The position numbers and the translations under genes were made by a program. The notes beneath the pieces are model-generated. The model was not told where the DNA came from and searched no databases. It saw only the letters and a list, made by a program, of their open reading frames with translations. DNA of 64,000 bases from Roseateles oligotrophus (GTDB taxonomy: Bacteria; Pseudomonadota; Gammaproteobacteria; Burkholderiales; Burkholderiaceae_C): NCBI RefSeq assembly GCF_025717515.1, contig NZ_JAJIRN010000008.1:310001-374000 (forward strand), read 5' to 3'. This document shows positions 3,660 to 23,306 of this stretch, in pieces (the first letter of the stretch is position 1; each line of letters starts with the position of its first letter).

Positions 3660-4427
3660 TCAGTGGATAACTTTCCAGCCGGCCAAGACCAGCGAGCCGC
3701 AGAGCAGGCCGCGAATCACGCCGTCGGGCAGACGGCGCGTCAGCTGCGCGCCCAGCCAAATGCCGGGCATCGAGCCCATCAGCAGCGGCAGCAACAAGCC
3801 CCAATTTACATTGCCCAGCGTCGCATGGCCAATGCCCGCGACGAGCGTCAGGGGAACGGCGTGCGCAATATCACTGCCGACGATGTAGCGGGCTTCCAGG
3901 CGCGGGTAGAGCAAGAGAATCAGCGTCGCGCCAATCGCGCCGGCGCCGATCGAAGACAGCGACACCAACACGCCCAGAATCACGCCGCAGATGACCGTCA
4001 AGGCCGGCTTGCGCGACTCCGGGATGTAACGCTCCAGGCGCAGGCCCACCGCTTGCCAGGACTTCTTGAAGGCCACTACCACGGCGGTCAGCAGCAGCGC
4101 GATGCCGAGCGAAAAGGTCAGCGTGCTGGCCCAGCCCTTGGTGATCTCGGTCATGTGCATCACGGCGACGGTGCCGATCGAGGCCGGGATGCTGCCGAGC
4201 AGCAAGAGGCCGGTCAGGCCCCATTTCACATGGCCGTGGCGAGCGTGGGCCACCGAGCCGGAAATCTTGGTCAGCGCCGCGAACCAGAGATCGGTGCCGA
4301 TGGCGACCGCCGGGCTCAGCTTGAAGACCGACAGCAGCAGCGGCGTCATCAAGGAGCCGCCGCCCACGCCGGTGATCCCGACGATGATGCCGACACCCAA
4401 GCCGCTCAATACTGCAATCCAGTCCAT
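3660..4427 (-). CDS. TauE/SafE-family sulfite/sulfur-anion transporter
   Basis: This is a 255-residue polytopic inner-membrane protein of the TauE/SafE (formerly DUF81) family. It opens with a first helix and the family loop IVGITGVGGGSLMTPLL, and an internal second copy of the pattern appears around VLVSLSSIGAGAIGATL. Several hydrophobic segments follow (such as WGLTGLLLLGSIPASIG and LLCGSLVLAGW). The family exports or takes up sulfite, sulfoacetate or related anions. As the first gene of the cys operon it most likely moves sulfate, sulfite or thiosulfate. A good ribosome site (AAGGAG, 5 nt before the ATG) supports this start. Confidence 0.85.
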   Translation of the reverse strand: MDWIAVLSGLGVGIIVGITGVGGGSLMTPLLLSVFKLSPAVAIGTDLWFAALTKISGSVAHARHGHVKWGLTGLLLLGSIPASIGTVAVMHMTEITKGWASTLTFSLGIALLLTAVVVAFKKSWQAVGLRLERYIPESRKPALTVICGVILGVLVSLSSIGAGAIGATLILLLYPRLEARYIVGSDIAHAVPLTLVAGIGHATLGNVNWGLLLPLLMGSMPGIWLGAQLTRRLPDGVIRGLLCGSLVLAGWKVIH

Positions 4428-4519
4428 GAAACTCCTTGTTGGGCGGCCAGGTGGGCAACCCTAGGGGGCGGACTTTAAAGTTACTCCATAGATATGCAAA
4501 CCATTTGTTTGTAAGTTGC

Positions 4520-4530
4520 TTATTCGATAA
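4520..4530. promoter_or_regulatory. Candidate LysR-type (CysB-like) site upstream of the cys operon
   Basis: The 190-base gap between the cys operon and the NYN gene contains a strikingly AT-rich stretch (about 4470-4550). Within it is a perfect dyad with arms TTAT and ATAA around a 3-base centre. CysB of the LysR family is the known activator of sulfate-assimilation genes and binds AT-rich sites of this kind. The exact site here is inference. Confidence 0.3.
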
Positions 4531-4619
4531 TTGATATATAGCGTGTATCCGGTCACTTGAAGCGACCGGCTCGCGGTAAGCTCGGCGTCCTCGCCCTTTT
4601 CCTGAACACCATCGTCCAC

Positions 4620-7150: not shown

Positions 7151-7660
7151 ATGAGCAACCTGATTTTTCAAGGCTCCGTGCCTGTTTTCAAGCAGATGTT
7201 GGGCGGCTTGTCTGACGTGCTCGCCAAGGCCGAGGCCCATGCCGGCGCGCGCAATATCGAGGCCAGCGCCTTGCTGCAAGCGCGTTTGTTCCCCGATATG
7301 TTTGCGCTGACCAAGCAGGTGCAAGTAGCCTGTGACTTCGCCAAGGGCGTGTGCGCCCGCTTGGCCGGTGTCGAAGTGCCTTCTGCCGAAGACACCGAGC
7401 AGAGCTTTGCTGATTTGCAGGCGCGCATCCAAAAAACGCTGGCCTTTATCGAGGGGCTGGATCCGGCCAAGTTCGAGGCCGCAGGCGCACGCGACATCGT
7501 CACGCGCCCCGGTACGCCCAAAGAGCGCCACTTCACCGGCCAGGACTATCTGTTGCATTACGGCCTGCCGCAGTTCTTCTTCCATGTCACGACCGCCTAC
7601 GCCTTGCTGCGTCATAACGGCGTGGAAGTGGGTAAGAAGGACTATATGGGCGCCTACTGA
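7151..7660 (+). CDS. DUF1993 domain-containing protein
   Basis: This 169-residue soluble protein matches DUF1993 (PF09351) from end to end. Family features are VPVFKQMLGGLSDVLAKAEAH near the N terminus, LLQARLFPDMFALTKQVQVA, and the C-terminal FTGQDYLLHYGLPQFFFHVT. DUF1993 is a four-helix protein distantly like the DinB fold; its reaction is unknown. The start ATG at 7151 is preferred to an upstream in-frame codon at 7082 because family members begin with the short sequence before VPVFKQML. It runs divergently from the gene at 6556-6996. Confidence 0.85.
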   Translation: MSNLIFQGSVPVFKQMLGGLSDVLAKAEAHAGARNIEASALLQARLFPDMFALTKQVQVACDFAKGVCARLAGVEVPSAEDTEQSFADLQARIQKTLAFIEGLDPAKFEAAGARDIVTRPGTPKERHFTGQDYLLHYGLPQFFFHVTTAYALLRHNGVEVGKKDYMGAY

Positions 7661-7755
7661 TGAAGGCCCCCCCCCGCGTTCGTGGCAAACTCGGGGCAGC
7701 AGTAGCGTTAGTTCCAGCAATATCGGCGTTATGTGCGCCAGAACAGGAGATCACC

Positions 7756-7896
7756 ATGGCCAAAGGACAGCAAAAAACCAATAAGGAAGCAAAGAAGCCG
7801 AAGAAGGACACCTCGCCTCCAAAGCCGATTTCTCCCGATGCCGTGATGCCCACACGCGTGACCGTGGTGGCCGATCGCAGCAAGAAGACGAAGTGA
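7756..7896 (+). CDS. 46-residue lysine-rich small protein
   Basis: This short reading frame starts at ATG 7756 behind a good ribosome site (AGGAGA, 5 bases before the start). It encodes a very basic protein beginning MAKGQQKTNKEAKKPKKD and ending in RSKKTK. Small proteins with this MAKGQ-KSNKEAKKPKK opening recur in many proteobacteria and are annotated only as hypothetical. Strong charge suggests nucleic-acid or ribosome contact, but that is a guess. It lies 95 bases after the DUF1993 gene and ends just before a strong terminator. Confidence 0.7.
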   Translation: MAKGQQKTNKEAKKPKKDTSPPKPISPDAVMPTRVTVVADRSKKTK

Positions 7897-7942
7897 TTCA
7901 GGGGCGCCAGTTGGCCGGCTAGACGGTCATGGCGTCGCCAAT

Positions 7943-7972
7943 AAAAAATGGGCCCAGTGGGCCCATTTTTTC
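7943..7972. terminator. Strong bidirectional intrinsic terminator
   Basis: A perfect 13-base inverted repeat (arms AAAAAATGGGCCC and GGGCCCATTTTTT, loop AGT) lies between the convergent small-protein gene and the PEP-CTERM gene. It gives a T-run in both directions, so it should stop transcription of both. Confidence 0.92.
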
Positions 7973-7990
7973 TTTCAAGCGCCGTAGCGT

Positions 7991-8698
7991 TTAGCTTTTG
8001 ATAGCGCTTGACCGGCGGCGGGATACAAAGCCGATCACGCCAAGGCCGGCCATCAGCAGCGCATAGCTGCTGGGTTCCGGCACCGCTGTCACGACCGCGT
8101 TGAAGCGCAGCAAGTCTTGTTGCTCAGGGTTGCTGAGCTTTTCGATTTGATACAGATTCGCGCCCTTGTAGGCTGCGCCGGCGTCCAGATAGCTATTGGC
8201 CTGGCTCATCAGCGAGCTGTAATTTTTGCTGCTGTTGTTCAGGTTGAAGCCCTGGCCGTCGGAGTCATTGGCCCCTTCGGTGACGCTGAATTTTCCGGCC
8301 TTGCTCTCATGCGTCAGCTCCCAAACGGCCAGCTGAAAAGCGGCGCGCTCGGCGTTGGTGTCGACCGTGGCATAGCTGGCGGAAAGCAGGTTCTGCAAAT
8401 TTGTGCCCTGCGTGGTGCTGAAGCTGCCGACTGTGTAAGTCTTCAAGGATTCGATCGTGTATTGACCCAGCTCGACGCAATAGGCCGAGAAACTCTTGTT
8501 GTCGCTGGTCTCGAAATTCAGCAAACCGGCCGTCACGTGGTCATTGTTTTTACCAAACTGTTCGATTTTGACGGCCTCGCCACCATCCGCAATGCCGGTG
8601 TACTTGAGGCTGAGAGTGGTGGCAGACGCGGCAGAAGAAGCTGCCACGAGGCAGGCCAAGATTGAAGCGGAGACAAAAGCAGAGTTGATTTTTTTCAT
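7991..8698 (-). CDS. PEP-CTERM surface protein with possible thioester (TQXA-like) core
   Basis: This 235-residue exported protein is a likely substrate of the exosortase at 17166. It has a signal peptide (about 1-26, ending SAASAT) and a beta-rich body. The C-terminal sorting signal is VPEPSSYALLMAGLGVIGFV followed by basic SRRR, the textbook PEP-CTERM tripartite signal. Cys74 lies in FSAYCVEL and Gln122 in AFQLAVWE. This spacing and context resemble the Cys/Gln pair of thioester-domain (TQXA) adhesins, so an internal thioester is possible but unproven. It lies about 4 kb before the eps operon. Extracellular or outer-membrane display is inferred from the family. Confidence 0.88.
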   Translation of the reverse strand: MKKINSAFVSASILACLVAASSAASATTLSLKYTGIADGGEAVKIEQFGKNNDHVTAGLLNFETSDNKSFSAYCVELGQYTIESLKTYTVGSFSTTQGTNLQNLLSASYATVDTNAERAAFQLAVWELTHESKAGKFSVTEGANDSDGQGFNLNNSSKNYSSLMSQANSYLDAGAAYKGANLYQIEKLSNPEQQDLLRFNAVVTAVPEPSSYALLMAGLGVIGFVSRRRSSAIKS

Positions 8699-8906
8699 GT
8701 GTCTTGTAGCAGGGCTGTTGCCCCCGTCCCGTTGATCAAGTGATTGAAGACTTGCACTTTAGGGACTCAGGCAGGCAGGCAACAGCCCTTGCGGCGATGA
8801 CAAAAGCCACCCGCGTGAAGGAACACACGGCGGCCGCGCTCAAGTTCTCGAGCGGGCCGCAGACTCAAGCAGCAAGGCGCCTCCCGGCGCCCGACGCAAG
8901 CAGAAA

Positions 8907-10454
8907 TCAGGCGCGCAACTTGAAGGCCGCCACCGAGTCCACCAATTGCGAGGCCTGATCGCGCAGACTTTGTGCCGCTGCCGCGGACTCCTCCACCAAG
9001 GCGGCATTTTGCTGGGTCATCTTGTCCAGCGCGCCGACCGCCTGGCCGATCTCGCCCAGGGTCAAAGCCTGTGCCGAGGTCGAGCCTGAAATCTCCGCCA
9101 CGATTTGCGTCACACGCTGCACGCTCTGCACCACTTCGCCGATGGTGTCGCCGGTGTCCTGCACCAGTTTGGCTCCGCTCTCGACCTTCTCCACCGAGGT
9201 GGAGATCAAGGCCTTGATTTCGCGCGCGGCCTGTGCGCTGCGCTGCGCCAGCAAACGCACCTCGCTGGCCACCACCGCGAAGCCGCGTCCTTGTTCGCCG
9301 GCCCGGGCCGCTTCCACGGCCGCGTTCAGCGCCAGGATATTGGTCTGGAAGGCGATGCTGTCGATCACGCCGATGATGTCGGAGATCTTGTTGGACGACT
9401 GCTGAATTTCCTGCATGGTTGCCACCACGCGGCTGACCATGGCGCCGCCTCGGTCGGCCACCGCCGAGGCCGATTGCGCCAAGCCGTCCGCCTGGCGCGC
9501 GGCATCCGCATTGCTGCGCACACCTTCGCCAAGTTGTTGCATCGCCGCGCCGGTTTGTTCCAGGCTGCTGGCGGCCTGCTCGGTGCGGTTGGACAGATCC
9601 ATATTGCCGGTGGCAATCTCGGCCGAGGCAATGCGCACCTGTTCGGCCGCGCTTCGCACGCCTGAAATCGTGTTCGACAGTTGCTGCTGCATCTGTTGCA
9701 GTGACTGCGTCAGGTCGGCGAGTTCATCGCTGCCTTGTGACTGCACATTCATCGTCAAGTCGCCATCGGCGATGCTGTGCGACAGCGCCTGCGCCTGCTC
9801 GATCGGCTTGATCACCGAGCGCGTGATGGCCAGCGCGATCACCACGCCCAGGCCGATCGCCAGCACCAGCAGCAGCAAGACCAGATTGCTGGCCGACTCG
9901 GCCTGCGCCTCGGCATCGTTTTTGGCCTCGTTCAAGCGTTCGCGGGTATGGTCGGCATAGGCATTGATGGCATCAAGATAAGACTCCATCGCGGGAATCA
10001 ACTCTGCGATGACGCGCGAGCGGATGTCCTGGCCATCCTTTTTGAGCTTGCTCAGCTCGTCCCGTATGGTTTGGTACTGCTTGCGGGTGCCGCCAATCTT
10101 GTCACTCAAACGCTCGGAGGCAGGCGTCTTGCTGAGCTTGTCTAACTCGGTCTGAATCTTGTCCACTCGGGCCGAGGTTTCCTTGGCCTTGCTGGTAAAG
10201 GCTTTGACGAACTCGGCGTCGTCGATGGCCAGGGTGACGATGCGCCGCTGTATGTTCGACTCCGTCAGCCCCGCCCATTGCCGAGCCAATTCCAGCGTGT
10301 GCATATCGGTCTCGACCAATTGCTCGATGCGGGCATTCAGTTGATTGACCCGCATCACCCCCACCACCGAGGCCACCAACATCAAGCTCATCACCAGAGC
10401 GAAGCCGGCCAGCACACGCGCGCGCAAGCGCCAGGAAAGCATTGTTGTACCCAT
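8907..10454 (-). CDS. Methyl-accepting chemotaxis protein
   Basis: This 515-residue transmembrane chemoreceptor has TM1 at about 11-34. A periplasmic four-helix ligand-binding region (about 35-190) ends in ERLNEAKNDAEAQAESA, and TM2 spans about 191-211 (LVLLLLVLAIGLGVVIALAI). A HAMP domain (IKPIEQAQALSHSIADGDLT) precedes the long signalling coil. The hairpin tip is intact (IAFQTNILALNAAVEAARAG, EQGRGFAVVASEVRLLAQRS). There is no C-terminal CheR/CheB pentapeptide; the chain ends AFKLRA. No che genes are nearby, so it is an orphan receptor whose ligand is unknown. Confidence 0.95.
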   Translation of the reverse strand: MGTTMLSWRLRARVLAGFALVMSLMLVASVVGVMRVNQLNARIEQLVETDMHTLELARQWAGLTESNIQRRIVTLAIDDAEFVKAFTSKAKETSARVDKIQTELDKLSKTPASERLSDKIGGTRKQYQTIRDELSKLKKDGQDIRSRVIAELIPAMESYLDAINAYADHTRERLNEAKNDAEAQAESASNLVLLLLVLAIGLGVVIALAITRSVIKPIEQAQALSHSIADGDLTMNVQSQGSDELADLTQSLQQMQQQLSNTISGVRSAAEQVRIASAEIATGNMDLSNRTEQAASSLEQTGAAMQQLGEGVRSNADAARQADGLAQSASAVADRGGAMVSRVVATMQEIQQSSNKISDIIGVIDSIAFQTNILALNAAVEAARAGEQGRGFAVVASEVRLLAQRSAQAAREIKALISTSVEKVESGAKLVQDTGDTIGEVVQSVQRVTQIVAEISGSTSAQALTLGEIGQAVGALDKMTQQNAALVEESAAAAQSLRDQASQLVDSVAAFKLRA

Positions 10455-11023: not shown

Positions 11024-11052
11024 TTGTGGATGGTTAGCGAATTTGCTAACAT
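11024..11052 (+). promoter_or_regulatory. Promoter and 18-base palindromic operator of the HigBA-like pair
   Basis: The near-perfect palindrome GTTAGCGAATTTGCTAAC (11033-11050, one mismatched pair) covers a plausible sigma-70 promoter. Its -35 is TTGTGG at 11024-11029, and its -10 is TAACAT at 11047-11052, with a 17-base spacer. The toxin ATG follows 15 bases later. Autorepression by the XRE antitoxin is the usual arrangement; it is inferred here. Confidence 0.65.
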
Positions 11053-11066
11053 CCGGGCCAGCAGCT

Positions 11067-11393
11067 ATGAGCTTCCAAATTGAGTATTTTCACGAACGAA
11101 TCCTCGCGGAAATCGAATCTTGGCCGGTTGATGTGCTGGCTGACTACGCCCGCTTGCTGGAATTGCTGGCCGAGCATGGCCCCAGTCTTCGCCTGCCGCA
11201 CTCGCGAGCATTCGGAGGCGGGCTGTTCGAATTGCGCCCGCGTGGACGATCCGGCATAGGCCGCGCCTTTTATTGTTTTTTGGTGGGCAAGCGAGTGGTG
11301 ATCTTGCATGCCTTCATCAAGAAAACACAGCAAACGCCTGACGGTGAATTGAAAACCGCGCGCAAGCGCCTGAAGGAGGTCCAAGATGGCTGA
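11067..11393 (+). CDS. RelE/HigB-like toxin (phage Gp49-like family)
   Basis: This 108-residue basic protein of the RelE-fold 'phage-derived Gp49-like' (DUF891) family acts as an mRNA-interferase type toxin. Recognisable elements are YARLLELLAEHGPSLRLPHS, the central GGLFELRPRGRSGIGRAFYC, and the C-terminal HAFIKKTQQTPDGELKTARK. The pattern LFELR...R..YC...V.LLHAFIKKTQKTP is diagnostic. The toxin gene comes first and overlaps the antitoxin by 8 bases, the HigBA order. ATG 11067 is chosen over a TTG at 11043, which lies inside the palindrome. Confidence 0.88.
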   Translation: MSFQIEYFHERILAEIESWPVDVLADYARLLELLAEHGPSLRLPHSRAFGGGLFELRPRGRSGIGRAFYCFLVGKRVVILHAFIKKTQQTPDGELKTARKRLKEVQDG

Positions 11394-11703
11394 TCTGAAT
11401 TACAAGCCCGTGCGCCACGATCACGCGGCCTTCATCGCAAAAGCAAAGCAAAGAGCGGGTTTCACCGACGCGTACGACGAACTCGAACTCGAATATGCGT
11501 TGGCCAGTCAAATGCTGACGGCGCGCTCCAAAGCCGGGCTGACCCAAGATGCCGTGGCCGAGCGCATGGGCACCACCAAAAGCGCGATTTCCCGGCTTGA
11601 GTCGGCCGGCCGACATGCGCCCTCACTCGCGACGCTGAAAAAATATGCATCGGCTGTGGGCTGTGATCTGCAGGTCAAGCTGGTGCCGCACAAGTCGAGC
11701 TGA
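11386..11703 (+). CDS. XRE-family HTH antitoxin (HigA-like)
   Basis: This 105-residue antitoxin has a helix-turn-helix at about 38-95 (SQMLTARSKAGLTQDAVAER, MGTTKSAISRLESAG, LATLKKYASAVGCDLQVKLV). The N-terminal extension DAYDELELEYALA probably contacts the toxin. The HTH type and toxin-first order match HigBA-type type II modules. It probably binds the palindrome at 11033-11050. The pair lies between DUF971 and ubiE. Confidence 0.88.
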   Translation: MADLNYKPVRHDHAAFIAKAKQRAGFTDAYDELELEYALASQMLTARSKAGLTQDAVAERMGTTKSAISRLESAGRHAPSLATLKKYASAVGCDLQVKLVPHKSS

Positions 11704-12872: not shown

Positions 12873-13907
12873 ATGAAGCTGAAGACGACTCAACAACAAG
12901 AATTCCTGGCCGCACGCAAGACCTTGCACACCGCGCCGCGCCTGTCGGCTCTGGTTGCCGCCGTCGCGGTGACCGTGCTGCTGGCCGCTTGCGGTGGTGG
13001 TGGCAAGTCCGACAAGGCCTCGCAGACTGCGGCCAAGGTCAATAAAGAAGAGATCACCGTTCATCAGATCAACTTTGTGCTGCAGCGCCAACAAGGCCTC
13101 AAGCCCGAGCAGGCCGAAGCCGCCTCCAAGCAAGTGCTGGAGCGTCTGATCGAGCAAGAACTCGCCGTGCAAAAAGGCCAAGAGCTGAAGATTGACCGCG
13201 ACCCCAAGGTGGTCCAGCAGATCGAAGCCGCCAAGCGCGAAATCATCGCCCGCGCCTATGTCGAGCGCATCGGTGAGTCCATCGCTAAGCCGACGGCCGA
13301 AGAAGTCAGCAAGTACTACAACGAGAAGCCGGCGCTGTTCAAAGACCGCCGCATCTTCAGTCTGCAAGAGCTGGCCATTGAAGCCACGCCCGAGCAGTTC
13401 CCAGTCATCCGCGAAAAGCTGCAATCCTCCAAGAGCATGGCCGAATTCGCCGAGTTCTTGAAGGCGAGCAATATCCGCTTCAACGGCAACCAGGCCGTGC
13501 GTGCCGCCGAGCAGCTGCCGCTGGCCGGCCTCGACGCCATCTCGCGCATGAAGGACGGCGACTCCGCCGTCACGCAAACCCCCACCGGCATGACCGTCTT
13601 GTTCCTGGTCGGCTCGCGCAGCCAGCCGGTTGACGAAGCCCGCGCCAAGCCTGCGATCGAAGCCTTCCTGGGCAACCAGCGCAAGTCCGAGCAAGTGCAA
13701 AAAGACATCAAGGCGCTGCGTGAAGCCGCCAAGATCGAATACATCGGCAAGTTTGCCGAAGGCGCACCGGGCAAGGCCGGCGCGGCACCTGCTTCGGCAC
13801 CTGTTGCAGCCGCCACCGGCGACGCTCCGGCTGCAGCTGCACCCGTGGCTCCGGCCGCCAGCGGCCTCGACGCCAACGCCATCTCCAAGGGCATGGGCCT
13901 GAAGTGA
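12873..13907 (+). CDS. epsD: EpsD-family peptidyl-prolyl cis-trans isomerase lipoprotein
   Basis: This 344-residue periplasmic lipoprotein has a signal with lipobox LLAAC at Cys40, followed by a GGGGK linker. A SurA/parvulin-type N-terminal region follows (KVNKEEITVHQINFVLQRQ, LERLIEQELAVQKGQEL). The PPIase-like part is degenerate (ERIGESIAKPTAEEVSKYYN, RRIFSLQELAI). An Ala/Pro-rich tail closes the chain. The layout fits the EpsD family (TIGR02925), which is found only in exosortase-linked EPS loci. It probably chaperones the outer-membrane export parts. It starts the eps operon and overlaps epsE by 4 bases. Confidence 0.9.
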   Translation: MKLKTTQQQEFLAARKTLHTAPRLSALVAAVAVTVLLAACGGGGKSDKASQTAAKVNKEEITVHQINFVLQRQQGLKPEQAEAASKQVLERLIEQELAVQKGQELKIDRDPKVVQQIEAAKREIIARAYVERIGESIAKPTAEEVSKYYNEKPALFKDRRIFSLQELAIEATPEQFPVIREKLQSSKSMAEFAEFLKASNIRFNGNQAVRAAEQLPLAGLDAISRMKDGDSAVTQTPTGMTVLFLVGSRSQPVDEARAKPAIEAFLGNQRKSEQVQKDIKALREAAKIEYIGKFAEGAPGKAGAAPASAPVAAATGDAPAAAAPVAPAASGLDANAISKGMGLK

Positions 13908-14800
13908 AAGCCATGAAGAAGATGAGCGAGCAGAAAACCATGATGAAGATGAAGCCCATGAGCATGAACAAGGCCTTGTTGGCTTGTGCATTGATGGCAA
14001 CCCAGGCAACGCTGCTGGCCCCGGCCTTCGCGCAAACTACCGCCGCCGCTGCTCCCGTCGCCTCCGCTTCAGCCGAATACCGACTCGGCGCCGGTGACGT
14101 GATGCGCATCTCGGTCTATCAAAACCCCGACCTGACGCTGGAGACACGCGTCTCCGAGAACAACGTCATCTCCTTCCCCTTGCTGGGCAGCATTCGCGTC
14201 GGTGGCCTCAGCGTCACGCAGGCCGAGCAGCTGATCAGCGACGGGCTCAAGAAGGGCAACTTCGTCAAGAACCCGCAAGTCACCATCGTGGTCTTGCAGG
14301 TCAAGGGCAACCAAGCCAGCGTCTTGGGCCAAGTCAACCGCCCGGGCCGTTACCCGATTGAAACAGCCGATATGCGCCTGACCGATCTGATCGCCAACGC
14401 CGGCGGTGTGGTCACCGGTGTGGGCTCCGAAACGCTGATCCTGTCGGGCAAGCGCGAAGGCAAGCCTTACCGTTTGGAAATCGACTTGCCTGGCATCTTT
14501 GCGGTCGGTGGTGGTGCGCAAGACGTCTTCATCCAGAACGGCGACGTGGTCTGGGTGGACCGTGCGCCAATGGTCTACATCTACGGTGAAGTGCAGCGCC
14601 CCGGCCCGATGCGCCTGGAGCGCGGCATGACGCTGATGCAGAGTTTGGCCACGGGTGGCGGCATCACGCAGCGCGGTACCGAAAAGGGCATCCGCGTGCA
14701 CCGCAAGAACGCCGACGGCAAGGTCGAAATCATTCAACTCCCGATGGACGAGAGTTTGAAAGATGGCGACGTTGTTTATGTCAAAGAGAGTTTGTTCTAA
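13904..14800 (+). CDS. epsE: EpsE polysaccharide export (Wza-like) periplasmic protein
   Basis: This 298-residue polysaccharide export protein of the Wza/OPX type has a signal sequence ending PAFAQ (about residue 44). The Poly_export domain is clear (YRLGAGDVMRISVYQNPDLT, ISFPLLGSIRVGGLSVTQAE). Two SLBB repeats follow (ASVLGQVNRPGRYPI and VYIYGEVQRPGPMRLERGM). There is no lipobox and no Wza C-terminal amphipathic helix, as usual for the EpsE (TIGR03028) branch. It should gate export across the periplasm with EpsF. The GTG start overlaps the epsD stop; an ATG at 13913 is an alternative. Confidence 0.93.
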   Translation: MKAMKKMSEQKTMMKMKPMSMNKALLACALMATQATLLAPAFAQTTAAAAPVASASAEYRLGAGDVMRISVYQNPDLTLETRVSENNVISFPLLGSIRVGGLSVTQAEQLISDGLKKGNFVKNPQVTIVVLQVKGNQASVLGQVNRPGRYPIETADMRLTDLIANAGGVVTGVGSETLILSGKREGKPYRLEIDLPGIFAVGGGAQDVFIQNGDVVWVDRAPMVYIYGEVQRPGPMRLERGMTLMQSLATGGGITQRGTEKGIRVHRKNADGKVEIIQLPMDESLKDGDVVYVKESLF

Positions 14801-14812
14801 GGATCGCCGACC

Positions 14813-16243
14813 ATGAGTTTCGGACAATTTATCGCCATATTGCGCGCCCGGTGGGTTCTCTCGGCAGCACTATTTGCCCTGACGGTTTTGACAACGGTTG
14901 TCGTCAGTCTTTTGCTGCCAAAGCAGTACTCAGCTGTTGCGTCGGTCGTTATTGACCCCAAACCAGATCCGTTGTCTTCGGTTTTGTATGGTGGCGGCGC
15001 AAACCCTGCTTTCATGGCCACTCAGGTCGATGTCATCCAGAGTGATCGGGTCGCGCTGCGCGTTGTTCGTAACTTGAAGCTTGGTGAAAATCCGCAAGTG
15101 CGGGCTCAATGGCTGGAAGAAACAAAAGGCATCGGCAGTGTGGAGAGTTGGCTGGCTGAGTCTTTTCAGAAGAACTTGGACGTCAAGCCCTCCCGAGAGT
15201 CGAACGTCATTTCGGTTGGTTATCGGGGCACAGACCCTCGATTTGCTGCGGCCCTTGCCAATGCATTCGTTCAGTCTTTTGCGGAAGTCACGCTGGAGCT
15301 GAAGGTTGATCCAGCCAAACAGTACGGAGCATTTTTCGACGTCCGTGCAAAAGAAGCGCGTGATTCGCTAGAAAAAGTTCAATCAAAGCTGAGTGATTTC
15401 CAAAAGGAAAGCGGTATTACTGCGGCCGATGAGCGTTTGGATATTGAAAACGCTAGGCTGAATGAGCTTTCCACTCAGTTGGTCGGATTGCAAGCGTTGG
15501 CCAGTGATTCGGGCAGTCGGCAATCTATTTCAAAGGGCGCCGGTGGCGACCGTATGCAAGAAGTTTTGGGTAACCCGCTGATTTCCAGTCTCAAGGCCGA
15601 CCAGACGAGATTGGAAGCTCGGCTGGAAGAATTGAATTCCAAGCTCGGTACCAGTCATCCTCAAGTTATCGAAGCCAAGGCCAATTTGACCGAGTTGAAC
15701 AAGCGCGTCGTCGAAGAGACGGCCAAGGTCAGCAGCAGTCTCGGGCTTGCCAACTCGATCAACAACCAACGCCTGGGCGAGCTGCGTACATCCCTGGAAG
15801 CGCAGCGTGCCAAGGTGTTGCAGATGAAGGCCGTGCGAGATCAGGCTGCCGTTTTGGCCAGGGATGTCGAGAGCGCGCAGCGTGCCTATGACATGGTTCT
15901 GGCGCGCTTGAATCAGACCAATCTTGAAAGTCAGACGACACAGAGCTATGTCAGCGTGCTGACGCAGGCAGAGCCACCGCTGAAACCATCTTCGCCGCGC
16001 ATTTTCCTGAATACGGCGTTGTCGGTTTTCGTAGGTACTCTGTTGGCATTGGGTGCAGCTTTCCTGCTTGAAATGCTTGACCGCCGTGTGCGCAGTGTCG
16101 ATGACATTGCCACTGCCATCGGCCTGCCCGTCATTGGCACTCTTCCTAAGCCAGGCACTTCAATTGCTGCGCAGCGAGGCTTGGGCAGCTTGATGCAGCA
16201 GCGCATTCTTGGCCAATTGGCTGCGCCTTCCAAGGGGGCGTAA
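14813..16243 (+). CDS. epsF: EpsF chain-length determinant (Wzz-type polysaccharide co-polymerase)
   Basis: This 476-residue inner-membrane co-polymerase has TM1 at about 15-37 (WVLSAALFALTVLTTVVVSL), then the Wzz motif YSAVASVVIDPKPDPLSS. A long coiled periplasmic helix follows (FQKESGITAADERLDIENAR, EVIEAKANLTELNKRV-like coil). The C-terminal PLKPSSPRIFLNTALSVFVG runs into TM2. There is no kinase domain; that is supplied by the next gene. It should set chain length together with the Wzy-type polymerase at 23308. Codon use is visibly richer in T/A third positions than in epsD/epsE. Confidence 0.93.
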   Translation: MSFGQFIAILRARWVLSAALFALTVLTTVVVSLLLPKQYSAVASVVIDPKPDPLSSVLYGGGANPAFMATQVDVIQSDRVALRVVRNLKLGENPQVRAQWLEETKGIGSVESWLAESFQKNLDVKPSRESNVISVGYRGTDPRFAAALANAFVQSFAEVTLELKVDPAKQYGAFFDVRAKEARDSLEKVQSKLSDFQKESGITAADERLDIENARLNELSTQLVGLQALASDSGSRQSISKGAGGDRMQEVLGNPLISSLKADQTRLEARLEELNSKLGTSHPQVIEAKANLTELNKRVVEETAKVSSSLGLANSINNQRLGELRTSLEAQRAKVLQMKAVRDQAAVLARDVESAQRAYDMVLARLNQTNLESQTTQSYVSVLTQAEPPLKPSSPRIFLNTALSVFVGTLLALGAAFLLEMLDRRVRSVDDIATAIGLPVIGTLPKPGTSIAAQRGLGSLMQQRILGQLAAPSKGA

Positions 16244-17158
16244 ATGTCACACCAATCAGAATCGACCATGACAGACCGAGCTTCTTCCGCAGTAAGCGGT
16301 GCCAACTCCAAGCCCGATGTCCGGGATCGCTCCATTGGCGACATCATTGCCGACACCCGCAATCTGAGTGTCGAGCAGGTTGAGAAGATTGTTGCTCATC
16401 AAAAGCAGACCGGCGCTCGCTTTGGTGAGGCCGCAATTGCCTTGGGCTTTGCCAGTTCAGATGATGTGTTGTTCGCACTGGCACAGCAATATCACTACCC
16501 TCTGGCAGCCGAAGACCAGCGCAAGCTCAGTCCGGAACTGGTGACTTTGAACCAGCCGTTTTCGGCACAGTCCGAGGCCTTCCGGGCTCTGCGTAGCCAG
16601 ATCATCATGCGGGTGTTGGGCGACGAGGGTTCCGAGCGTCATTCCTTGGCCGTGGTCAGTCCGGACAATGGTGACGGCAAGACGTTTTTTGCCGCAAATT
16701 TGGCCGTCACCCTGGCGCAATTGGGTGGCCGTACCTTGCTGGTGGACGCGGATATGCGCTCGCCCAGGTTGCATGAGGTCTTCGGCTTGACAAATGCGAC
16801 CGGTTTGTCCGGCATCTTGTCGGGTCGATCCGAGAACCAAGTCGTGCAGCAAGTGCCAAGCGTGCCCAATCTATTCTTGTTGCCGGTTGGCGCCACGCCA
16901 CCGAATCCGGTGGAGCTGGTGGAGCGGCCTGCTTTTGGGTTGCTGGTTCGCGAGTTGGCGGGCAAGTTCGACCATGTGGTGGTCGACACCCCGGCCGGAT
17001 CACTCGGCTCGGACGCTGCAGTGATCGCCTCCAAATGCGGCGCTGCGGTCATCATCGCTCGCAAGAATTCCTCGCGGGTTGAGGCGCTTCAACAATTGGT
17101 CTCCTTGTTGAGTGATGGTCGTACCAAGCTCGCCGGGGTGGTGATCAACGAGTTCTGA
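16244..17158 (+). CDS. epsG: EpsG bacterial tyrosine kinase with N-terminal MshEN-like domain
   Basis: This 304-residue BY-kinase (TIGR03029 type) partners EpsF. Residues about 31-86 look like half of an MshEN/GspE N-terminal domain (VEKIVAHQKQTGARFGEAAI, ALGFASSDDVLFALAQQ). The kinase domain has Walker A SPDNGDGKT (139-147), Walker A' LLVDADMR (165-172) and a Walker B-like VVVDTPAG. The C terminus stops at VVINEF, so the tyrosine cluster of Wzc/CpsD is missing, as is usual in this branch. It is cytoplasmic and membrane-associated through EpsF. A GGGGG ribosome site lies 5 bases upstream. Confidence 0.92.
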   Translation: MSHQSESTMTDRASSAVSGANSKPDVRDRSIGDIIADTRNLSVEQVEKIVAHQKQTGARFGEAAIALGFASSDDVLFALAQQYHYPLAAEDQRKLSPELVTLNQPFSAQSEAFRALRSQIIMRVLGDEGSERHSLAVVSPDNGDGKTFFAANLAVTLAQLGGRTLLVDADMRSPRLHEVFGLTNATGLSGILSGRSENQVVQQVPSVPNLFLLPVGATPPNPVELVERPAFGLLVRELAGKFDHVVVDTPAGSLGSDAAVIASKCGAAVIIARKNSSRVEALQQLVSLLSDGRTKLAGVVINEF

Positions 17159-17165
17159 GTAGACG

Positions 17166-18077
17166 ATGATGAGCGACTCAAAGCCGCAGCCTGCGACTGG
17201 CGGTCGGGAATGGTGGGCGGATATTTTGCCCAAGGGCGCCGATTTGATCGGTTTGCTGATTCTCCTGACCGGTTTGGCCGTCATGTTTGGCCCGACGGGG
17301 GCACATTTGGCCGGCACGGTCTGGGTCAAAGATGAGCAGGGCCACGGCCCCATCATCTTTGCCGTGGTGTTGTGGCTGCTCTATGGCAAACGGCATGCGT
17401 TCGCCGAACTGGTGGCCAAGCCAAAACCCATCGCCGGCAGTCTGTTGCTGGCGCTGGGCCTGATGCTCTATGTGCTGGGGCGCTCGCAAGCCGTATTGAT
17501 GTTTGAAGTCGGCGCCTTGATCCCGATCTCCATCGGCTTGATTTTGCTGTTCAAAGGCGTTGAAGCCTTGCGCCTGGTCTGGTTTCCAATTTTTTTCTTG
17601 ATTTTCATGGTGCCTTTGCCAGCCACCTTGGTGATCGCCATCACCACACCGTTGAAGACCGCTGTTTCGGCGGTGGCCAGCAGCCTGCTTTACAACATCG
17701 GTTATCCCGTCGGGCGCAGCGGCGTGATCTTGACGGTCGGCCCTTATCAGCTTCTGGTGGCTGATGCCTGCGCCGGTTTGAACTCGATGTTCACGCTGGA
17801 GGCGCTGGGCCTGCTCTACATGAATTTGATGAACTACAAGTCGGCGGCCAGAAATGTGGCCTTGGCCGTGTTGATCATCCCGATCTCCTTTGTGGCCAAC
17901 ATCATCCGGGTGATGATTTTGGTCTTGGTTACGTACCACTTTGGTGACGAAGCCGGCCAAGGTTTCGTGCATGGTTTTGCGGGCATGGTGCTCTTCATCG
18001 TGGCGCTGTCTTTGATATTGTTTGTGGATCACGGTATGAATGCGGCAGCCAAATATGCAAAGGCGGTGTTCAAGTGA
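17166..18077 (+). CDS. xrtB: Exosortase B
   Basis: This 303-residue polytopic inner-membrane protein with about eight hydrophobic segments is a cysteine transpeptidase-like enzyme that cleaves PEP-CTERM signals. The family catalytic residues are all visible: Cys202 in VADACAGLNSMFTLEALG, Arg248 in VANIIRVMILVL, and His269 in GFVHGFAG. The MVPLPATL segment and the adjacent EpsI mark it as the XrtB branch. It sits 7 bases after epsG and overlaps epsI by 4. Its likely substrate in the window is the PEP-CTERM protein at 7991-8698. Confidence 0.94.
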   Translation: MMSDSKPQPATGGREWWADILPKGADLIGLLILLTGLAVMFGPTGAHLAGTVWVKDEQGHGPIIFAVVLWLLYGKRHAFAELVAKPKPIAGSLLLALGLMLYVLGRSQAVLMFEVGALIPISIGLILLFKGVEALRLVWFPIFFLIFMVPLPATLVIAITTPLKTAVSAVASSLLYNIGYPVGRSGVILTVGPYQLLVADACAGLNSMFTLEALGLLYMNLMNYKSAARNVALAVLIIPISFVANIIRVMILVLVTYHFGDEAGQGFVHGFAGMVLFIVALSLILFVDHGMNAAAKYAKAVFK

Positions 18078-18781
18078 ACTCGCGCCGCACCGCTCTGGTC
18101 GTGATGGCCGCCATGTTGGGTTCGGCCGCCTTGGCGGATTGGGCTCGGCCCACCATCAAGGTGTCCGACTCCTTCAAGAATTTCAAACTCGATGCCGTAT
18201 TCCCCAAGTCCTTCGGGGATTGGCGTGTCGATGAAAACCTGCCCGTGATCGTGCCTCCGCCCGATCAACAAGCCCAGTTGGACAAAATATATAACCAGAC
18301 GCTGGCTCGCACCTATGTCAACCGTGAGGGGGCTCGCGTGATGTTGTCGGTCGCTTATGGCGGCGACCAATCCGACGGTTTGACCGTCCATGTGCCCGAT
18401 GTTTGCTATGTCTCCCAGGGCTTTCGCATGGGTGAAACGCGCGATGCAACTTTGCAGGTGTCCGGGGATATTGTCATACCCGTGCGACATTTGATGATGA
18501 CAATGGGGCCGCGCTTGGAGGTCGTCACTTATTGGGTACTGATGGGTGACGAGGCGACCACCTCTAACACCCAACGCAAGTGGGTATCCATTCGTTATGG
18601 GCTCAAGCGGCAAATTCCTGAAGGCATGTTGATTCGCGTCTCGTCCATCAATCCGGAGATGGATAAAGCGATACCGCTGCACAAAGATTTTATTAATCAA
18701 TTGATGCTGGCCATGCCTGAAAACCAACGTGACCGGGTGATTGGTCGGGTGTCTGTCAAAAAAGATGATTCGAGAAGTTGA
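18074..18781 (+). CDS. epsI: EpsI, exosortase B-associated protein
   Basis: This 235-residue exported protein has an N-terminal hydrophobic segment ([19 protein letters not shown]). The EpsI core follows: [33 protein letters not shown] and the conserved DVCYVSQGF. EpsI occurs either fused to the exosortase C terminus or, as here, as a separate gene right after it. Its biochemical task is unknown; periplasmic assistance to exosortase or EPS assembly is inferred. The GTG start overlaps the xrtB stop. Confidence 0.92.
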
Positions 18782-21806: not shown

Positions 21807-23306
21807 ATGCCCGCTGTGCGCGCCGACAATTCCAGCCTGACCAAGCGCGCGATGCGAGCGGTCGCCTGGGGCTATGGAGGCACTTTCGTTCGCATGGCCA
21901 TGCAGCTAGGCGCACAGGCGGTGCTGGCTCGGCTCTTGGGCCCTGCCGAATTCGGGGTTTTTGCTGCTTTGATGCTCTTGGCTGCTGTGGCCGTATTGGC
22001 GGCCGACTTGGTCAGCGCGCCCATTATTCAGTCGGCGGACTTGACCGCGGAGCAGCTGGCCTTTGCCTGTGCTTGCCAATTGTTTGGTTCGCTGCTGGTG
22101 GCGATATTGGTCATGGCCTGCTTGCCCTTCTACCGGGCCATGTTTCCGCTGTTGGATGATATTGGCCTCGGCCTGGCCTTTATGGCCGCTGGCACGCTGG
22201 TCACGGGGCTGAGTGGTGTATCCCTGTCCTTGTTGAGGCGCCATTTGCGCTATCGCGAGATTCAAACGGCTCAAGTGGCGGGATATTTTGCCGGCTATAT
22301 CTTGCTGGCGATTCCGCTGGCCTTGGCGGGATTCAAAACCTATCAGGTGCTGGTGTTGGCCTGGCTGGGGCAGGCGGTAGTCAGTTCTGCTTTGCTGTAT
22401 GCCGCCGAACGGCATGCATGGACCTTGTCTTTCTCGGTTCGGGCCAACGCCAAGTTCCTGACCTTCGGGGCTCAAATCTCGCTGGGCAATATCGGCAATT
22501 GGTTGGCCAGCAGTGGGGACAGAGTCTTGGTCACCAAATTCGCCGGGCCCGTCGAAATCGGCTACTACAACACCATGCTGAATTTGTTGATGACGCCGGT
22601 GGTGCAGTTGGCTGCCTCGCTCAATACCGTGGCGTTTTCGGTTGCGGCCCAGTCCAGCCAGGAGACCCGAAGGCGCGGCGCCTTGGCCTATCTCAATTTA
22701 ACCGCCATGGTCGCCTGCCTTTTGTATGGCGTGTTTTTTGCGTTTCCGGAGAGCTTTGTCGCCCTGATCTACGGGCCACGCTGGTTGGGCGGTGCGGCCT
22801 TTGTTCAGCCTTTTTGCTTGGCGGCGGTGGGTTTTGCGATCGGTGCGGCCGCCAATGCCGTGTTGACGTCTACTGGCAAAGGATCGGCGGTGGCCATGGT
22901 GCAGGCAGCCACCGCCTGCCTGCTGCTGATCGCCGTGTTTGTCGCGTTGCGCAGCTCGGTGCTCTTGGCCGCGCAGTGGATGGCCGGCGTCTACCTTTTG
23001 CGGGCCATCGCCTTGACTCTGCTCAGCCTGCGGCATGTCGGCGCCGGCTTGGCGGGCGGCTTGACCATTATTGCGCTGCCACTGTTCTGGCTTTGCGTTC
23101 AGGTGCTCTTGGCAAGACAAGTCGCCGATGTTCTTGCTTTGCAACAGGCTCTTGTGCGAATGCTCCTATCGCTTGGCGCGGGGTGTTTGATGCTTGGTTT
23201 GGCGCTGGCTCTGCGGCGGCAAGTATTCCTACACGATGCACAACTGCTGTTGACCCGATTGCTCGCGCGGTTGTTCCCTAATTTTTCTTTTGGTCAAAAG
23301 GCCTGA
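21807..23306 (+). CDS. Wzx-type lipid-linked oligosaccharide flippase (MATE/PST family)
   Basis: This 499-residue inner-membrane protein has about 12-14 hydrophobic segments. The N-terminal region AMRAVAWGYGGTFVRMAMQL followed by ARLLGPAEFGVFAALMLL is typical of the PST-family flippases (WzxC-like). LLRRHLRYREIQTAQV and YGPRWLGGAAFVQPF match conserved loops of the family. It should flip the undecaprenyl-linked repeat unit to the periplasm for polymerisation. The ATG is far downstream of fcl's stop by only 34 bases, so it is in the operon. Substrate sugar cannot be read from sequence. Confidence 0.88.
   Translation: MPAVRADNSSLTKRAMRAVAWGYGGTFVRMAMQLGAQAVLARLLGPAEFGVFAALMLLAAVAVLAADLVSAPIIQSADLTAEQLAFACACQLFGSLLVAILVMACLPFYRAMFPLLDDIGLGLAFMAAGTLVTGLSGVSLSLLRRHLRYREIQTAQVAGYFAGYILLAIPLALAGFKTYQVLVLAWLGQAVVSSALLYAAERHAWTLSFSVRANAKFLTFGAQISLGNIGNWLASSGDRVLVTKFAGPVEIGYYNTMLNLLMTPVVQLAASLNTVAFSVAAQSSQETRRRGALAYLNLTAMVACLLYGVFFAFPESFVALIYGPRWLGGAAFVQPFCLAAVGFAIGAAANAVLTSTGKGSAVAMVQAATACLLLIAVFVALRSSVLLAAQWMAGVYLLRAIALTLLSLRHVGAGLAGGLTIIALPLFWLCVQVLLARQVADVLALQQALVRMLLSLGAGCLMLGLALALRRQVFLHDAQLLLTRLLARLFPNFSFGQKA

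Follow-up and report, generated by a model that had tools for sequence, protein, structure and literature searches.

The window, by which we mean the whole 64,000-nucleotide stretch of DNA analysed here, encodes on its minus strand a protein of 235 residues (7991..8698, ATG open reading frame) that very probably carries the thioester ("chemical harpoon") domain of Gram-positive adhesins together with a Gram-negative sorting tag. By every feature open to testing, the protein is a thioester-domain (TED) protein. An earlier note had proposed a TQXA-like thioester domain on a PEP-CTERM protein, with an internal bond between Cys74 and Gln122. The domain is borne out by PF08341, by the predicted model and by comparison with the PDB, and Cys74 stands as the candidate cysteine, whereas Gln122 is not supported as its partner. 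The earlier idea was of the right kind, with one residue mistaken.

Domain organization and profile matches

Both segments named in the earlier note, FSAYCVEL with Cys74 and AFQLAVWE with Gln122, are present in the open reading frame. A signal peptide, judged by eye, spans residues 1-26 (8621..8698, minus strand), with ASA (AxA) preceding Thr27. The mature thioester domain follows at residues 27-205 (8084..8620, minus strand), as assigned from PF08341 (30.2 bits on this stretch alone), the model and its Z-score to PDB entry 6fwv. The PEP-CTERM sorting signal occupies residues 205-229 (8012..8086, minus strand) and was rightly called clear: it exceeds the cut-offs of both PF07589 in Pfam (37.1 bits against 20.7) and TIGR02595 in NCBIfam (26.4 bits against 16). 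The protein has the PEP motif, hydrophobic stretch and Arg-rich C-terminus of an exosortase substrate, and its genome has exosortases, XrtB within the window and XrtA on another contig. We also considered a lipoprotein reading of the N-terminus and rejected it; among the N-termini of six relatives, four have no cysteine (L041, L042, L043, L051) and two have cysteines at other places (L044, L045).

In the full protein, residues 72-169 score 29.3 bits with the Pfam "Thioester domain" model PF08341 (cut-off 22, E 1.2e-6), and no other Pfam domain besides the PEP-CTERM signal exceeds its cut-off. PF08341 found no match in 14 control genomes. For comparison, the pLS20 TED (Bacillus subtilis) scores 24.6 bits with PF08341 and 30.3 bits with the sister model TED_2. 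PF08341 is the sole Pfam family that matches rows of our alignment A2, doing so at E<=0.01 in 42 of 73 rows; these rows are the window protein and 72 of the 80 loci kept as the best 80 of 124. NCBIfam has no family matching the thioester domain (0 of 73 rows), and its matches to the protein fall within the tail or extend into it, the exception being a chance-level match at residues 1-17.

A PDB sequence search with the protein did not find TEDs, and the family profile gave no match there even at E 10. Such searches miss TEDs because the sequences are too divergent, like known TEDs among themselves, whose pairwise identities are described as going down to about 5% (PMC4450167). When seven class II TEDs from Gram-positive plasmids were compared profile to profile, no match emerged (probability 1.6); the 19 aligned columns placed YCVEL on YCIDP. 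In all seven, x-L follows the last-strand glutamine. In the annotated frame of the pLS20 TED the cysteine is residue 57 and the last-strand glutamine residue 245, an offset of 11 from the bond pair Cys68/Gln256 given in the pLS20 paper, where the cysteine is described as required for efficient conjugation.

Predicted structure and register of the bond residues

The AlphaFold2 model of the mature domain, computed from the 73-row alignment A2, has a pLDDT of 93.5 and a pTM of 0.91 and consists, in order, of six strands, two helices, a third helix and two last strands. In a Foldseek search against the PDB, TED proteins took all of ranks 1-11 (best E 3.3e-4; three below 0.001). Comparison with 997 chains in VIA-align gave 30 chains with Z of at least 8; by entry, 12 TED-protein entries lie at Z 8.8-12.2 and the next entry at 2.9. 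Titles or papers identify eleven of these 12 as TED proteins. The twelfth, 5dcq (FNE), we take to be one as well. The best match is 6fwv (Z 12.2, rmsd 3.2, 147 aligned residues), and by this comparison the predicted model has the TED fold.

The register of the last strand was read from where the aligned ranges end, with no gap assumed in that strand. These ends pair residue 275 of 5a0g with model residue 176, 276 of 5a0d with 177 and 268 of 5a0l with 175, and likewise 585 of 2xic, 2xid and 2xi9 with 178 and 584 of 4bug with 177. The published bond glutamines are Gln267 in CpTIE and Gln261 in SfbI (PMC4450167), and the crystallographic bond residue of Spy0125 is Gln575. Counting back from the range ends places Gln267 (5a0g, 5a0d), Gln261 (5a0l) and Gln575 (2xic, 4bug) on model residue 168, which is Gln194 of the protein. 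On the model, Gln194 would thus stand in register with the bond glutamines of all three proteins.

A second model, of a Planctomycetota relative (L097; pLDDT 89.4), was built from an alignment of its own group (A4), which holds 15 of the 16 Planctomycetota loci and the single Verrucomicrobiota one. VIA-align ranked nine TED-protein entries at Z 8.4-11.2 and the next entry at 2.9, and the same count-back puts Gln267, Gln261 and Gln575 on its Gln189, the glutamine of its own QD motif. Since 14 of the 16 rows of A4 are also in A2, this second model checks a distant member of the family and does not amount to an independent alignment. No non-TED entry exceeds Z 2.9 in either VIA-align list, though such lists do not exclude other folds.

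Class I TEDs are described as having a helix α0 between strand D and α1, and class II TEDs a β-sandwich between α3 and strand P (PMC6194298). The DSSP assignment of our model runs from strand 60-65 straight into helix 69-85, and from helix 134-150 on to strand 157-163, and includes neither feature. With both absent, the protein as modelled looks like a minimal TED.

Motifs and conservation of the candidate bond residues

In known TEDs, the bond cysteine is described as lying in a [YFL]C-Φ-ζ motif and the bond glutamine in a weak ΦQζΦΦ motif of the last strand (PMC4450167, PMC6194298). A further motif, TQxxΦW, lies on the central helix apart from the bond residues, and neither its Gln nor its Trp is needed for the bond (PMC4450167, PMC6194298); it is weak and not fully conserved across known TEDs (PMC4450167). 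In our protein, Cys74 (8477..8479, minus strand), the proposed thioester cysteine by motif and conservation, lies in YCVE, a full [YFL]C-Φ-ζ motif. Gln122 (8333..8335, minus strand) lies in FQLAVW, within model helix 89-104, and this segment follows TQxxΦW with Phe instead of Thr. By the published motif and by conservation, Gln122 is the helix glutamine, for which a hydrogen bond to the Cys backbone is expected instead of a part in the thioester. Gln194 (8117..8119, minus strand), the proposed thioester glutamine by conservation and by register with the solved TEDs, lies in QQDLL, which follows ΦQζΦΦ except that its first position is not hydrophobic, just ahead of model strand 170-175.

Conservation was assessed in three sets, which overlap (for example in the L012 and L044 proteins) and are not summable; every row count includes the window protein. 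Set 1 aligns 31 proteins. Besides the window protein it has 29 from whole-genome protein searches and one from the PF08341 search, making 30 of 39 loci plus the query after removal of two query copies, one paralogue copy and six loci matching by the PEP tail. Set 2 holds 81 rows, the window protein and the best 80 of 124 confirmed loci from titled genome records; for L088, which has two matching ORFs, the first was used. The search pattern for this set covered A120-E127, so the set is no test of Gln122, and the pattern is free of Cys74 and Gln194. Set 3 holds 30 loci from the genus, those 30 of the 35 listed matches for which loci were given.

In set 1, Cys74, Gln122, Trp126 and Gln194 are each conserved in all 31 proteins. 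Gln184 and Gln193, the other candidate glutamines near the last strand, are kept in 8 and 1 of the 31, respectively. Across the best 80 of 124 loci and the window protein, the Cys74 position is Cys in 80 of 81 rows and Ser in L066, and Gln194 is kept in 80 of 81, the exception being L119, whose frame stops short of it. With L119 set aside, Gln194 is the sole fully invariant mature column outside the search pattern (80 of 80), followed by Cys74 and Leu104 with 79 each. Set 3 gave 30 of 30 for both Cys74 and Gln122 and 29 of 30 for Gln194, L148 being cut by a contig end. Trp126 is present there in 29 of 30, again with one cut, and both set 1 and set 3 were found without the helix motif. The relatives share 22-78% domain identity with our protein, most of them below 42%.

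The flanking residues vary more. The full [YFL]C-Φ-ζ motif is found in 51 of the 80 Cys-bearing rows of set 2 (best 80 of 124 loci plus the window protein), the rest mostly having W before the cysteine (14) or T after it (12). Around the last-strand glutamine, the same rows read YQDLV (11 rows), YQDLL (5) and similar forms.

These data, together with the register, point to Gln194 and not to Gln122 as the candidate bond partner of Cys74; the earlier idea was largely right and had the wrong glutamine. That note had looked to co-conservation of Cys74 and Gln122 as a check on their bond. The two are co-conserved, but Gln194 is equally so, and the check could therefore not discriminate between the two glutamines.

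We also considered an intramolecular disulfide and rejected it. Beyond the column of residue 27, exactly one cysteine is found in 69 of the 81 rows (best 80 of 124 loci plus the window protein), two in 11 and none in L066; by eye, nine of the 11 second cysteines lie in the C-terminal tail, with those of L084 and L119 elsewhere. A cysteine that is mostly alone in the exported protein is a poor fit to such a bond.

Two variants were seen alongside. In L066 (Roseateles cellulosilyticus, about 3998-4546), an AGC codon puts Ser where the thioester Cys would be, and the other motifs are intact; this protein may be a natural loss variant or a candidate ester-former. Another, deeper group of PEP-CTERM proteins with a TED comprises L128 (in the same genome as our protein, C52:215439-215879), L155-L159, L161 and L162. 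Its members have WVYCLDP and GQ- or SQ-type ends, with the Cys and Gln kept and the Asp after the Gln not.

Distribution among bacteria

The best 80 of the 124 confirmed candidates, which are not a census and were sorted to taxa by record title, comprise 49 loci from Burkholderiales and other betaproteobacteria plus 3 from Neisseriales, 7 from Rhodobacteraceae, 4 from gammaproteobacteria, 16 from Planctomycetota and 1 from Verrucomicrobiota. A regular expression applied to their last 60 residues assigned PEP tails to 55 of the 80, PxPA/G-type tails to 14 and other tails to 11. The last are all from Planctomycetota, and the non-PEP tails are putative exosortase signals.

The protein has a match at 1e-9 in 28 of 200 genomes of the family sample, its own included, and in 14 of 18 genomes of the genus, most with more than one. 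PF08341 matches in 1 of 300 genomes of the order sample and 2 of 299 of the phylum sample, again including the protein's own, and the family profile A1 in 3 of 299 of the phylum sample. With matches in so few sampled genomes, the domain is patchy. No relative is encoded on any plasmid of the searched collection.

The genome itself encodes three such TED proteins. Within it the window protein finds 29 matches, 22 of which start at residue 190 or later, that is, via the PEP-CTERM tail; with these tail matches and with both XrtA and XrtB present, the genome has a large PEP-CTERM repertoire. A further locus from the same phylum, L040 (1333-3330, minus strand), encodes a large repeat protein with a TED match of 27.2 bits near its C-terminus. 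By eye, its repeats resemble Cna-B/SdrD units, which may make it a Gram-negative protein of TIE-like build with a stalk.

Genomic surroundings

About 4 kb from the TED gene begins an exopolysaccharide (EPS) cluster of the exosortase B type (12873-18781). EpsD, EpsE, EpsF and an EpsG-like kinase (12873..17158, plus strand) were assigned from NCBIfam models: TIGR02925 (238.8 bits, cut-off 108.9), TIGR03028 (331.7, cut-off 262.65), TIGR03017 (544.1, cut-off 422.75) and, for the kinase, TIGR03029 with 274.8 bits, under its cut-off of 313.8. They are followed by exosortase B (XrtB; 17166..18077, plus strand; TIGR03113, 357.8 bits, cut-off 275), a candidate for the enzyme that processes the PEP-CTERM tail, and by the exosortase-associated, B-type EpsI (18074..18781, plus strand; NF045609, 264.2 bits, cut-off 220). 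Flippase- and transferase-like genes seem to come after EpsI, the flippase families matching 21807-23306 under cut-off.

Upstream of the TED gene, across a gap of 208 bases, is a gene of the same orientation (8907-10454) that resembles chemoreceptors in NCBIfam matches under cut-offs; the TED gene also faces a gene on the opposite strand. No neighbouring gene names a target. Of the 12 window genes compared, the neighbours of the TED gene recur beside its relative in each of L041, L042 and L043, except for some genes and, in L041, the chemoreceptor gene. The TED protein is 76, 68 and 62% identical in these three loci, in each the lowest value among the matched genes.

No sigma-70-like promoter was found in 7650-8910, nor a sigma-54-like site in the upstream stretch 8699-8906; across the window the sigma-54-like pattern has 151 matches, set against a chance mean of 122 and a largest shuffle of 160. 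Between the convergent genes, at 7943-7971, an inverted repeat read by eye has perfectly matching 13-bp arms with A and T at its ends; it is likely a two-way terminator, which the terminator scan omits probably because the T run lies inside the stem. At 11043-11703, two overlapping small genes have, by eye, the look of a RelE/HigB-type toxin and an Xre antitoxin. The pair has no match in the syntenic L041-L043, where genes on both sides match, and is thus perhaps an insertion.

Proposed mechanism and alternative readings

We consider it probable that this is a small single-TED protein whose Cys74 and Gln194 form a buried thioester, displayed through an exosortase as a covalent matrix or adhesion protein or linker. 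The calculated domain, predicted fold, residues, tail and exosortases, with the signal peptide read by eye, are the ground from which we infer bond, processing and capture. After Sec export the domain would fold, and attack by Cys74 on the Gln194 side chain would expel NH3 to give a buried thioester, with Gln122 and Trp126 bracing the Cys backbone. XrtB or XrtA would process the PEP tail, and the protein would reach the outer surface or the EPS. A target nucleophile (lysine amine, amino sugar or hydroxyl) could then enter the pocket and open the thioester, becoming covalently bound through Gln194. With an exosortase end and a thioester end, the protein might serve as a covalent linker of cell surface, EPS and neighbours. 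Counting against this explanation are the PF08341 matches at E<=0.01 in no more than 42 of 73 rows, the negative results of the PDB sequence search and of the profile comparison with class II TEDs, the missing stalk, the Ser of L066, the lack of a target named by any neighbouring gene and the patchiness of the domain.

We expect the protein to act as an adhesin or matrix protein, and other PEP-CTERM proteins have been tied to EPS binding (papers on PEP-CTERM proteins); the word "thioester" has no occurrences in the PepA paper or in the other PEP-CTERM/EPS paper. The target could also lie outside the matrix, on a host, an alga or another bacterium, which would make the protein a short adhesin instead of a matrix linker. 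Attachment of this sort is a reasonable alternative, plausible without being our first choice: known TEDs are described as binding host protein or acting in mating (PMC4450167; pLS20 paper), and the TED gene is the least conserved of the matched window genes in the three syntenic relatives, as is often the case for exposed proteins. The PEP-CTERM tail and the nearby XrtB-EPS locus, however, point toward EPS, and the absence of a stalk, which speaks against a long-reach adhesin, also weighs against a short one.

It is improbable that the protein has the TED fold without the thioester, its Cys and Gln being kept for packing and the Cys remaining a free thiol or joining an intermolecular disulfide. 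L066, with Ser at the Cys position and the other motifs intact, fits such a reading, as does the report that Cys-to-Ala TEDs fold normally (PMC4450167), which makes the fold independent of the bond. A mostly lone cysteine and a near-invariant bond glutamine, at the low identities seen among the relatives, are nevertheless what a reactive pair predicts, and the 2015 paper describes a 17 Da loss in each TED protein measured (PMC4450167). A Cys74-Gln122 bond is very improbable: Gln122 is invariant in sets 1 and 3 and its equivalent adjoins the Cys in known TEDs, but that helix Gln makes a hydrogen bond to the Cys backbone in solved TEDs, neither it nor the Trp proved essential when a Cpa TED was mutagenized (PMC4450167), and the position of the bond glutamine fits Gln194 by register and conservation.

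If the Cys74-Gln194 thioester is taken further, to an exosortase-displayed class of covalent adhesins in Gram-negative bacteria of at least three phyla, in which a minimal TED holds EPS, the cell surface or neighbours covalently, the proposal becomes tentative and falls somewhat short of an even prospect. The 2015 survey described TEDs as found exclusively in Gram-positive bacteria (PMC4450167), a 2021 domain survey described TEDs with SpaA stalks in Firmicutes and Actinobacteria, and a 2022 domain survey added further TED clusters, with no occurrence of PEP-CTERM. No paper joining TEDs with PEP-CTERM or exosortases was found among the titles and abstract starts listed from a library with few subscription journals; PMC12617251 and PMC8416519 do not deal with thioester-domain PEP-CTERM or exosortase proteins. 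A TED on PEP-CTERM proteins would give them a concrete chemistry and a testable route for the covalent gluing of slime or neighbours, with Gln194 replacing Gln122 as the glutamine to mutate. If true, it would be a Gram-negative counterpart of the sortase-TED system, on an exosortase anchor.

Comparison with known systems

Floc-forming bacteria have PepA and other PEP-CTERM proteins that share with our protein the signal peptide, the PEP-CTERM tail and the exosortase/EPS setting, and PepA overexpression is described as increasing bound EPS (PepA paper). The likeness to PepA is partial: NF033554 matches residues 138-230 only, with 29.5 bits against a cut-off of 80. The thioester proteins of the complement and alpha-2-macroglobulin family likewise use a Cys-Gln thioester as a covalent harpoon (PMC4450167). 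They are described as carrying a CxEQ motif (PMC8416519), whereas in our protein the Cys is followed by VEL, giving CVEL, and 120 residues separate the Cys from the Gln.

The closest likeness is to the TEDs of Gram-positive TIE/LPXTG adhesins (CpTIE, SfbI, Cpa/Spy0125, BaTIE, EfmTIE86, SaTIE), with which the protein shares the predicted fold, the YC-Φ-ζ cysteine, the Q/W helix, a bond-type glutamine at the last strand and a C-terminal sorting signal. It is not a TIE adhesin, although it would work like one: with 235 residues in a single domain, it has no isopeptide or ester stalk, and in place of LPXTG and sortase it has a PEP-CTERM tail and exosortase, in Gram-negative hosts. Relative to the published descriptions of class I and class II TEDs, the model shows the domain pared down, without the helix α0 of the one and the β-sandwich of the other.
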